18,363 bases of DNA from Alphaproteobacteria bacterium (lineage in GTDB: Bacteria > Pseudomonadota > Alphaproteobacteria > Acetobacterales > Acetobacteraceae), in the NCBI GenBank assembly GCA_013298245.1, contig JAAFHD010000023.1:1-18363 (forward strand), given 5' to 3'. Shown here one piece after another: positions 6,056-10,483 of the stretch. The notes beneath the pieces were generated by a model that saw only the letters and a program-made list of their open reading frames with translations, searched no databases and was not told the DNA's origin. Within the stretch, counting starts at the first letter, position 1. Every line of letters starts with the position of its first letter. A program made the position numbers and the translations under genes.

Positions 6056-6397
6056 TCAGCGCGGCAGCCGCGCGAGCATCGCCCGCATCTCCGCGATCTC
6101 GCGCTCCTGCGCCACGATGATCTGTTCGGCCATGCGCCGCACCTCGGGGTCGCGGCCATGGCGCAGCACCACGCGCGCCATGTCGATGGCACCCTGGTGG
6201 TGCGGGATCATCCCCGCGATGAAGTCGCGATCCGCCTGGCCGGTGAAGCGGATATCCATGTCGCGATGCATGCGCTGGTTCGCCTCGCGGTATTCGCGCG
6301 TGCTGGCCGGCTCGCCGCGCGCGGGCGCACCGTGCCCTGCGTGCTGTGCTGCGGCCGGCAGGGCGGCCAGCATCAGAAGGAAAAGGCTGCGCTTCAT
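6056..6397 (-). CDS. exported DUF305 domain protein of the copper operon
   Basis: This 113-residue protein has a signal peptide ([17 protein letters not shown], cleavage about residue 17) followed by a His/Met-containing segment (HAGHG) and one DUF305 domain. Recognisable motifs are [14 protein letters not shown] at 40-53 and [12 protein letters not shown] at 63-74, then a helix rich in Met and charged residues. DUF305 proteins are small, mostly periplasmic helical-bundle proteins. Some, such as cyanobacterial CopM, bind copper, and others sit in metal-resistance operons. The ATG at 6397 overlaps the cueR stop by 4 nt. A longer reading frame from 6589 would cover cueR in another frame and start before the signal peptide, so I rejected it. 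As last gene of copA-cueR-DUF305, a role as periplasmic copper binder is a good inference but not proven. Confidence 0.88.
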
Positions 6398-6791
6398 CGT
6401 GGTGTCTCCGGCTTGGCTAGGTTGTCGAGAATGGGGCAGTCGGGCCGCGCATCGCCATGGCAGTTCGCGGCCAGATGCCGGATCGCGCCGATCATCTCCT
6501 GCAAGGCGGCGACCCGCGCTTCCAGCACGGCGGCGTGTTCCAGCGCCATGCGCTTCACATCGCCGCTGGCCCGCGCATGGTCGCCCCACAGCGCCAGCAA
6601 TTCGCCAATCTGCTTGACGCCGAAGCCCAGGTCGCGCGCGCGGCGGATGAAGCGCAGCCGGTCCAGATCGGCCGCGCCATAGACGCGATACCCCGCACCC
6701 GTTCGCGCGGCGCCCGGGATCAACCCCTGTTCCTCATACCAGCGGATCATCTTCGCGGAGACACCGGTGGCCCGCGCGGCCTGCCCGATAT

Positions 6792-6795
<4 letters not shown>
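6394..6795 (-). CDS. cueR: Cu(I)-responsive MerR-family regulator CueR/HmrR
   Basis: This 133-residue regulator starts with the MerR winged-helix domain ([20 protein letters not shown], then GYRVY near 35-39). A dimerisation helix follows, then a C-terminal metal loop, Cys112[10 protein letters not shown]120. The two cysteines spaced by seven residues and Ser77 in the dimer helix are the features that mark CueR-type sensors of Cu(I), Ag(I) and Au(I), as against divalent-metal MerR proteins. CueR activates promoters with an over-long spacer by untwisting DNA. The gene lies between copA (4-nt overlap at 6792-6795) and the DUF305 gene (4-nt overlap), so it is probably expressed from the copA promoter it activates, a positive feedback loop. 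Two matching operators lie between copA and the copZ-like gene. Confidence 0.93.
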
Positions 6796-8969
<2,174 letters not shown>

Positions 8970-8975
8970 GTGGTG

Positions 8976-8997
8976 CTTCCCATCCTGGCAAGGTCAA
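8976..8997 (-). promoter_or_regulatory. CueR-type operator/promoter facing copA
   Basis: On the minus strand, TTGACC (8997-8992) serves as -35 element and overlaps the dyad CTTGCCA-gga-TGGGAAG (8992-8976), in which six of seven arm pairs match. The dyad centre is base 14 counted from the first T of TTGACC, the position found in E. coli copA and rhizobial HmrR sites. A 19-bp spacer, typical of MerR-family promoters, puts the -10 at 8972-8967 (CACATG, weak) and the start at 8960. Confidence 0.78.
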
Positions 8998-9004
8998 TCC
9001 CGTC

Positions 9005-9026
9005 TTGACCTTTCCATGCTGGAAAG
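9005..9026 (+). promoter_or_regulatory. CueR-type operator/promoter facing the copZ-like gene
   Basis: TTGACC (9005-9010) overlaps a perfect dyad, CTTTCCA-tgc-TGGAAAG (9010-9026), again centred on base 14 from the first T. With a 19-bp spacer the -10 is GAATGT (9030-9035) and the start falls at 9042, the A of the copZ-like ATG. The sequence closely resembles the E. coli copA and rhizobial hmrR operators. Confidence 0.85.
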
Positions 9027-9041
9027 TGCGAATGTGCCGCC

Positions 9042-9239
9042 ATGACACACATCAACCTGACCCTCCCCGACATGGTCTGCGGCGGCTGCGCCAAGGCCGT
9101 GACCAAGGCGGTGCAGAAACTGGACCCGGCCGCCGTGGTCGATGCCGACCCCGACACGCACGCAGCCCGCATCACATCCACCGCGCGCGAGGCAGACCTG
9201 CGCGAAGCGCTGACCCGCGCGGGGTTCCCGCCGGCCTGA
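9042..9239 (+). CDS. copZ: CopZ-like copper chaperone (HMA domain)
   Basis: This 65-residue protein consists of a single heavy-metal-associated (ferredoxin-like) domain with the metal site M-V-Cys13-G-G-Cys16 near the N-terminus. Such CopZ/Atx1-type proteins carry Cu(I) in the cytoplasm and hand it to the N-terminal domain of CopA. Length is typical for the family. It diverges from copA across 72 nt that contain a CueR operator pointing at each gene, supporting a copper role rather than zinc or mercury. No Shine-Dalgarno sequence precedes the ATG (the upstream bases read aatgtgccgcc), and the operator geometry puts transcription initiation on the ATG itself. The start is nevertheless well fixed by the domain boundary. 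The aminotransferase gene follows 41 nt downstream and might receive readthrough. Confidence 0.9.
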   Translation: MTHINLTLPDMVCGGCAKAVTKAVQKLDPAAVVDADPDTHAARITSTAREADLREALTRAGFPPA

Positions 9240-9280
9240 ACGGGCGTTAGTTTCGCGGTGTCCAACCAAGGGAACCGCCC

Positions 9281-10483
9281 ATGCCCGCGCTCGCTGATCG
9301 CCTGAATGAATTCAAGGTCTCTGCCTCCGTCATCATGGGCGTGAAGGCGCGCGAGTTGGCAGCGCAGGGCATCAAGGTGATTTCGCTGAATGCCGGCGAG
9401 CCGGATTTCCCCACACCCGACCACGCGGTCGAGGCCGCGCACCAGGCCGCCCTGCGCGGTGACACGAAATACCCCGCACAGGACGGCAACCCGGCGCTGA
9501 AGCTGGCCGTGCAGCGCAAGTTCAAGCGCGACAACAATCTCGACTACGCGCTGGATGAAATCATCATCGGCAATGGTGGCAAGCAGGTCATCTTCAACGC
9601 GTTGATGGCCAGCGTGAATCCGGGCGAGGAGGTGGTGATCCCCGCCCCCTACTGGATCAGCTACGCGGAGATGGCGAAGGTGCCCGGCGGCGTGCCGGTG
9701 CTGGTCACCTGCCCGCAGAACAACGGCTTCAAGCTGCGCCCCGAAGACCTGGAAGCGGCGATCACGCCCAAGACGAAATGGGTGATGCTGAACTTCCCGA
9801 ACAACCCCACCGGTGCGGCATGTTCGCGCGCGGAAATGCAGGCGATTGCGGATGTGCTGCTGCGCCACCCGCATGTCTTCATCATGACCGACGATATGTA
9901 CGAACACCTGATCTATGACGGCTTTGAATTCTGCACGATCGCGGAGGTGGAACCGCGCCTGAAGGATCGCGTGCTGACGGTGAATGGCGTGTCCAAGACT
10001 TACGCCATGACCGGCTGGCGTGTGGGTTTCTGCGGCGGGCCGAAGGCGCTGATCAAGGGCATGAACAACATGCAGGGCCAGGTGACCTCGGGTGTGTCGG
10101 GCATTTCGCAGGCGGCCGCTGTCGCCGCGCTGGATGGCCCGCAGGAATTGGTGCGCGAACGCGCCGCCGAGTACCGCGCGCGGCGCGACCTGGTGGTGGA
10201 TATGCTGAACGCAGCACCCGGTGTGGCCTGCCACAAGCCGGAGGGTGCGTTCTACGTGTTCCCCTCCATCGCCGGCTGCATCGGCAAGACCAGCAAGGGC
10301 GGCCGCAAGATCGCCACTGACACCGATTTCGCGTTGGCGCTGCTGGAGGAAAACCACGTCGCCGTCGTGCAGGGCAGCGCCTATGGCATGAGCCCCTATA
10401 TCCGCATCAGCTACGCCGCCGACACCGCGACACTGACCGATGCCTGCACGCGCATCCAGGAGTTCTGCCGGGCGCTGACATGA
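9281..10483 (+). CDS. aspartate aminotransferase, class I PLP-dependent (AatB type)
   Basis: This 400-residue fold-type I aminotransferase probably interconverts aspartate/2-oxoglutarate and oxaloacetate/glutamate in the cytoplasm; some relatives also use prephenate or aromatic keto-acids. The start MPALADRLNEFKVSAS and LNAGEPDFPTPDH are typical of subgroup Ib. Visible PLP-site residues are Asn175 (NNPTG), Asp204 and Tyr207 (DDMYEH), the Schiff-base Lys239 (VNGVSKTYAMTGWR) and the carboxylate-binding Arg375 (PYIRISYA). The GGRKI-D-x-D-F stretch near 340-350 resembles alphaproteobacterial AatB proteins. Length is normal. AAGGGAA about 8 nt before the ATG is the ribosome site. It overlaps the following GNAT gene by 4 nt (ATGA). 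Precise substrate preference among aspartate, prephenate and tyrosine is not decidable here. Confidence 0.93.
   Translation: MPALADRLNEFKVSASVIMGVKARELAAQGIKVISLNAGEPDFPTPDHAVEAAHQAALRGDTKYPAQDGNPALKLAVQRKFKRDNNLDYALDEIIIGNGGKQVIFNALMASVNPGEEVVIPAPYWISYAEMAKVPGGVPVLVTCPQNNGFKLRPEDLEAAITPKTKWVMLNFPNNPTGAACSRAEMQAIADVLLRHPHVFIMTDDMYEHLIYDGFEFCTIAEVEPRLKDRVLTVNGVSKTYAMTGWRVGFCGGPKALIKGMNNMQGQVTSGVSGISQAAAVAALDGPQELVRERAAEYRARRDLVVDMLNAAPGVACHKPEGAFYVFPSIAGCIGKTSKGGRKIATDTDFALALLEENHVAVVQGSAYGMSPYIRISYAADTATLTDACTRIQEFCRALT

Follow-up and report, generated by a model that had tools for sequence, protein, structure and literature searches.

The window, meaning the whole stretch of DNA analyzed (18,363 nt of contig JAAFHD010000023.1, from an Acetobacteraceae genome), carries a copper locus in which copA, cueR, and a copM-like gene lie on the reverse strand and a gene for a copZ-like copper chaperone lies on the forward strand (Table 1). 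The source genome, G000, is a draft of 523 contigs, 82.81% complete. The cueR product has Cys112 and Cys120 as its sole cysteines and Ser77 at residue 77; PMC7911910 gives Cu(I) binding by Cys112 and Cys120 and a serine at position 77 as hallmarks of CueR. Its score with the E. coli-centered PRK10227 model was 111.8, below 244. The copM-like product was matched over 6056-6400 by NF049983 CopM (112.5 bits, cut-off 90) and by PF03713. The small HMA-domain chaperone carries the MxCxxC motif as MVCGGC and is named copZ-like because the curated CopZ equivalog models stayed below their cut-offs (NF047957, 27.6 against 85; NF033795, 19.8 against 91). Judged by CopA, the closest named relative is Rhodovarius sp. 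isolate SKYG64 (MAG) with 71% identity, and its copA promoter stretch is identical to that of genus member G153. Rhodovarius is placed in Roseomonadaceae, Acetobacterales, in the NCBI taxonomy.

Table 1. Genes and predicted promoter elements of the copper locus, with positions in the window
Feature	Position	Strand	Description
copM-like (DUF305) gene	6056..6397	-	4-nt overlap with cueR stop; start picked manually
cueR	6394..6795	-	4-nt overlap with copA stop; TIGR02044 159.0 bits, cut-off 147.4
copA, Cu(I)-exporting P-type ATPase	6792..8960	-	722 aa; PF00122, PF00702, PF00403; TIGR01511 556.5 bits, cut-off 397
Start codon of copA (Met4 in the longer frame)	8958..8960	-	Offset 31; predicted +1 at 8960
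Predicted -10 of copA, CACATG	8967..8972	-	19 bp from TTGACC; Met1 ATG (8969-8967) inside
CueR operator of copA	8976..8997	-	-35 TTGACC 8997-8992 and dyad 8992-8976; perfect pattern match
CueR operator of chaperone gene	9005..9026	+	-35 TTGACC 9005-9010 and dyad 9010-9026; perfect pattern match
Predicted -10 of chaperone gene, GAATGT	9030..9035	+	Placed by 19-bp spacer
copZ-like copper chaperone	9042..9239	+	65 aa; PF00403 42.3 bits; MVCGGC; ATG at predicted +1

Direct reading puts 72 nt between the first ATG of the copA frame (Met1, at 8969) and that of the chaperone gene (9042), a gap that holds two divergent CueR operators. The plus-side dyad, CTTTCCA-TGC-TGGAAAG, pairs at 7/7 positions and the minus-side dyad, CTTGCCA-GGA-TGGGAAG, at 6/7, with the centers at 9018 and 8984, base 14 in each case. 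Neither operator departs from TTGACCTTNCCNNNNTGGNAAG at any position, and no other perfect match occurs in the draft genome. The -10 positions were assigned from the 19-bp spacer because CueR promoters, like those of MerR, are described as having spacers of this length and requiring the activator (PMC7911910). With a spacer of 19, a hexamer of 6, and a gap of 6, the predicted +1 falls on 9042 for the chaperone gene and on 8960 for copA, each time on the A of an ATG. When counting begins at the base that follows TTGACC, the ATG has an offset of 31 nt on both sides, and offset 31 is +1 under the same three lengths. The coordinates, dyads, and spacings that a sequence-only reading had given for the two operators were all correct on direct reading, as was its placement of both predicted transcription starts on an ATG. 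Its description of the -10 hexamers as weak also held, since GAATGT and CACATG resemble TATAAT poorly. Among the copZ promoters of the genus, the second A and the last T of the predicted -10 are kept in 5/5.

No Shine-Dalgarno sequence precedes either ATG, as that reading had also claimed for the sequence outside the operators; the duplex energy with ACCUCCUU in the 20 nt upstream was 0.1 kcal/mol for the chaperone and -3.3 kcal/mol for copA Met4. A generic sigma-70 consensus scan of 8700-9300, made with 16- to 18-nt spacers and thus blind to 19-bp ones, returned no site. Both results speak against transcription from a different set of promoters, located within the opposite gene and farther upstream, which would give ordinary leaders and make the CueR geometry at the ATG incidental. 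Such promoters have a precedent in Gluconobacter, where a second upstream start is reported for 13 of 61 leaderless mRNAs (PMC5756330). Incidental geometry, however, would not be expected to give the one-nucleotide offset peak across 14 genera described below, and this explanation is highly improbable.

On the chaperone side, position 9035 is the last base of the -10, the ATG follows at 9042, and the in-frame ATG after it (9072) is already the first codon of the metal-binding MVCGGC; therefore, any chaperone-producing mRNA made from this promoter would have a leader of at most a few nucleotides. On the copA side, the ATGs of Met1 (8969) and Met6 (8954) are both in frame, and copA could begin at either, leaving the chaperone gene alone leaderless. 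The Met1 ATG, however, sits within the predicted -10 hexamer. An ATG at its offset (22) is missing from three of the five copA genes of the genus that have an intact divergent pair and recurs in G155 only, whereas an ATG at offset 31 or 32 is present in all five, and Met6 is without counterpart in the other four. A start at Met1 or Met6 is accordingly very unlikely, and the earlier proposal to move the copA start to Met4 is supported.

The genus sample comprised nine genomes, six of which carry CueR-type sites. Sixteen sites were accepted (three each in G000, G141, G152, and G155, two each in G153 and G154), and loose matches in or beside other genes, such as L122 and L132, were excluded by hand. 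The ATG lies at offset 31 in 13/16 accepted sites and at 32 in 2/16, namely copA and the copM-like gene of G141; the remaining site, in G152, is leadered (offset 51, SD energy -10.3). The copZ sites of G154 and G155 count as two in the resulting 15/16 and form one row in the called-site table considered below. The layout is found at copA, copZ, copC, and one copM-like gene, which is nearly all of the CueR targets found in the genus. All three accepted sites of the source genome are at offset 31, at copA, copZ, and copC; the third (L003, G000:C56:679-658) has one mismatch and is followed by a gene with a CopC domain and a signal-peptide-like start. Looser operator matches in this genome, with up to three mismatches, were dropped, as they numbered 19 vs 17 in the reversed-pattern control.

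Five genomes of the genus retain the divergent pair intact, with copZ at offset 31 in 5/5 and copA at 31 in 4/5 and at 32 in one. The 12 bases preceding the copZ ATG are different in all five. Whether the operator-to-ATG distance is fixed in relatives, a check put forward in the sequence-only reading, is thereby answered in the affirmative for this sample. The copZ operators L117, L119, L125, and L112 have dyads that are imperfect or one base shorter, and their offset is still 31. At L241 (G154:C327, around 2210), the copA operator and start are gone and the copZ operator runs into about codon 7 of copA; either the sequence between the inverted operators was truly deleted or the assembly collapsed there. 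The cueR relative of G151 (L255, G151:C524:897-1289) is interrupted by one in-frame TAG. G150 and G072 gave no CueR relative at E of 1e-25 or better; a different copA with 58% identity was seen in G072 and G150 (L245 and L246), its ATG without an obvious Shine-Dalgarno sequence.

Ordinary promoters of the genus were searched with the pattern TTGAC-N17-20-TANNNT. An ATG 5 to 8 nt further on was found 10 times vs 12 in the control, and an ATG 21 to 24 nt further on 11 times vs 4. Common leaderless starts at ordinary promoters were rejected on the missing excess at the leaderless spacing, and the genus shows no sign of a general leaderless habit in this weak test of sequence patterns.

In the family sample, TTGACCTTNCCNNNNTGGNAAG with at most one mismatch was found at 111 sites in 53/150 genomes, vs 7 for the reversed-pattern control (hand count), and a CueR operator with an ATG 24 to 45 nt after TTGACC was present in 75/397 family genomes. 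The offset survey recorded, for each site, the earliest ATG from offset 24 onward and used 93/100 rows, seven longer matches of the same operators being removed. Offset 31 was found at 41 sites, 32 at 9, 34 and 26 at 7 each, 41 at 6, 43 at 4, and every other offset at 3 or fewer. Beyond the genus, 34 sites are at offset 31, whereas offsets 24-30 and 33-41 average 2.0 sites each. The Poisson P for this peak is 8e-30 but treats related sites as independent, and the number of genera per offset (14 at 31, 7 at 32, at most 5 at any other) is the safer figure. Frames of at least 50 codons with coding-like GC3, mostly for CopA, open at 35 of the 41 offset-31 sites in 13 genera, and six open no real frame. 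Among the 35 coding frames, 33 are without a downstream in-frame start with a strong Shine-Dalgarno sequence, and one has an SD-like GGAGG just before the ATG. Sites with identical match strings were judged on one locus (G112 on G553; G754 C555 and G102 on G546).

The spread of offsets leaves some room for promoters as described whose +1 lies 1 to 5 nt before the ATG, giving very short leaders that still lack a Shine-Dalgarno sequence. Offsets 32 and 34, with 9/93 and 7/93 sites (6 and 5 with coding frames), fit such leaders, and with weak -10 hexamers the +1 could shift. The peak at offset 31 (41/93 sites) and the constancy of the offset while the sequence between operator and ATG varies weigh against them, and very short leaders are considered a credible but rather unlikely explanation of the layout compared with a +1 on the start codon itself.

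Wider samples showed the layout to be a minority arrangement. The operator-only sample of the family gave leaderless-type starts at 9/100 called sites, a later start with SD-like energy at 84, an unclear start at 6, and no start at 1. Among 87 called sites of the named set (80 loci), two were leaderless type, including the doubtful L187. The Pseudomonas-type copA ATGs at 31 (L187, L192, L193, and L195) were not trusted, the near-identical L185 having its ATG at 30 and out of the called frame. In the class sample outside the family, searched for an ATG within 21-51 nt only, the layout was found at L148 (31), L149 (32), and L145 (32). The called-site table (n = 218) holds sites that begin with TTGACC and have a called frame; the TTGATC sites L088 and L089 (ATG at 31, copC-like by eye) stand outside it. 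L073 and L289 (permease-like frame) and L065 (MerR type, several ATGs) are at 31 or 32 and were counted, and may be chance.

A strong SD energy (-7 kcal/mol or lower) was found at 0/28 leaderless-type starts vs 91/160 leadered starts, and the two distributions differed with a Mann-Whitney P of 4e-12; the contrast is partly circular, leadered starts being the best energy of the first three candidates and leaderless ones being picked by offset alone. Start codons at 31 or 32 in called frames were ATG in 28 cases and GTG in 1, in line with the preference of leaderless initiation for AUG stated in PMC5756330.

A CopA tree of 57 family rows (33 leaderless type, 20 leadered, and 4 at offset 34) requires at least 9 changes of layout, 8 of them forced by well-supported branches, and a wider tree of 84 rows (14 leaderless type and 70 others, including 7 unclear) requires at least 8 changes, 4 of them forced. 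The layout is clustered by clade yet has come and gone, the pattern that a short insertion or deletion adding or removing a leader with a Shine-Dalgarno sequence would give. Both layouts occur among close relatives: the copA genes of G036 and G121 (offset 31) and of G104 (offset 43, with a Shine-Dalgarno sequence) all start MPEAPL at that ATG.

Taken together, geometry and conservation point strongly to a divergent pair of CueR-activated promoters in which both start codons have their A at +1 and translation proceeds without a Shine-Dalgarno sequence. The switch of CueR and MerR regulators that allows an over-long spacer to be used is established, and for CueR it is driven by Cu(I). At this locus, CueR from the copA-cueR-copM gene cluster would bind each TTGACC dyad, and Cu(I) would convert it so that RNA polymerase can work with the over-long 19-bp spacer. 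The resulting mRNA would open with AUG, or within about 2 nt of it, and would be translated without a Shine-Dalgarno sequence; the exact +1, copper induction, and leaderless translation are all inferred, whereas the operators, the fixed ATG offset, the lack of a Shine-Dalgarno sequence, the recurrence, and the repeated switching are visible in the sequences. Promoter and start codon make up a single unit of constant spacing, about 40 bp long. This module recurs in all parts of the genus that carry CueR and, across the family, at a minority of CueR promoters, where copA promoters have switched repeatedly between the module and a leader with a Shine-Dalgarno sequence. Points against this reading are the poor -10 hexamers, the sites at offsets 32 (9) and 34 (7), where a fixed +1 would leave leaders of 1 and 3 nt, the 6/41 without a frame, the one coding frame preceded by GGAGG, the leadered G152 site, the 9/100 in the operator-only sample, and the missing general excess of leaderless spacing at ordinary promoters of the genus. 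As far as sequence can tell, translation of copper-defense genes in these bacteria probably does without the usual landing site for ribosomes.

The CueR-copA promoter of E. coli and its relatives described in PMC7911910 is alike in TTGACC, the inverted repeat, the 19-bp spacer as predicted here, and the Cys112/Cys120 pair of CueR. Unlike here, the named proteobacterial loci have the ATG at least 41 nt away, with SD-like energy at 79/87 called sites, 6 unclear, and 2 at 31 or 32. The csoR-cueA divergon of Bradyrhizobium liaoningense also has divergent copper promoters, and the csoR mRNA starts on the A of its ATG by 5' RACE; as presented in that report, the regulator is the repressor CsoR and not CueR, the leaderless gene is that of the regulator, and the cueA ATPase has a 42-nt leader (PMC5057107). 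The CvkR-cas12k pair of Anabaena is similar in that both divergent genes are likely leaderless, with 82 nt between the starts vs 81 here, and their start codons were corrected from mapped transcript starts; CvkR is described as a MerR-type repressor in a CRISPR transposon, and the account involves neither a metal nor a CueR operator (PMC9938897). In Gluconobacter oxydans, 62/1344 transcript starts were classed as leaderless, 57 of them with ATG, by the criterion of a 5' end at most 3 nt from the start codon (PMC5756330), and copJ and merP were leaderless in Cupriavidus metallidurans under copper (PMC7563307). In contrast to the present sites, the leaderless mRNAs of the latter two, as these reports present them, are linked to no CueR operator and to no fixed operator-to-ATG distance. 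A full-text search of open-license papers gave no match for leaderless combined with HmrR, and among the matches listed, none was recognized as describing leaderless targets of CueR or HmrR. Leaderless mRNAs and CueR promoters are each already known; what appears to be new is a predicted CueR promoter with the start codon at +1 that is recurrent and switchable.

Leaderless mRNAs have mostly been found singly in transcriptomes, and the cause of leaderlessness is usually obscure. Here, the operator marks the promoter precisely enough for the +1 to be predicted from sequence. The CueR promoter of the family could tentatively be seen, with doubt slightly outweighing confidence, as a cassette complete in itself, about 40 bp long from TTGACC to ATG, that sets transcription control, +1, and translation start and has been repeatedly gained and lost. 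If so, the cassette could put the gene behind it under copper control and leaderless translation, and in the genus copper stress would switch on a group of mRNAs that are translated leaderlessly, independently of SD-based initiation. Sister genes with and without a leader under the same regulator make any preference for leaderless translation in a stress regulon directly testable, and corrected copA starts are indicated for genomes annotated from the first ATG.

Some further features were observed among the family sites. In a smaller set of copA promoters (L274, L307, L309, and L310), the ATG lies at offset 34, which predicts a leader of 3 nt. At L256 and L257 (G774 and G540, one genus), the offset-31 ATG opens not CopA but a protein whose start, RRRFLASAAA, is Tat-like and which may be a periplasmic oxidase. 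The predicted -10 of family CueR sites (offsets 19-24) is mostly CAYNTN, unlike TATAAT; of 111 sites, 87 have the C, 100 have the A, and 76 have T as the fifth base.
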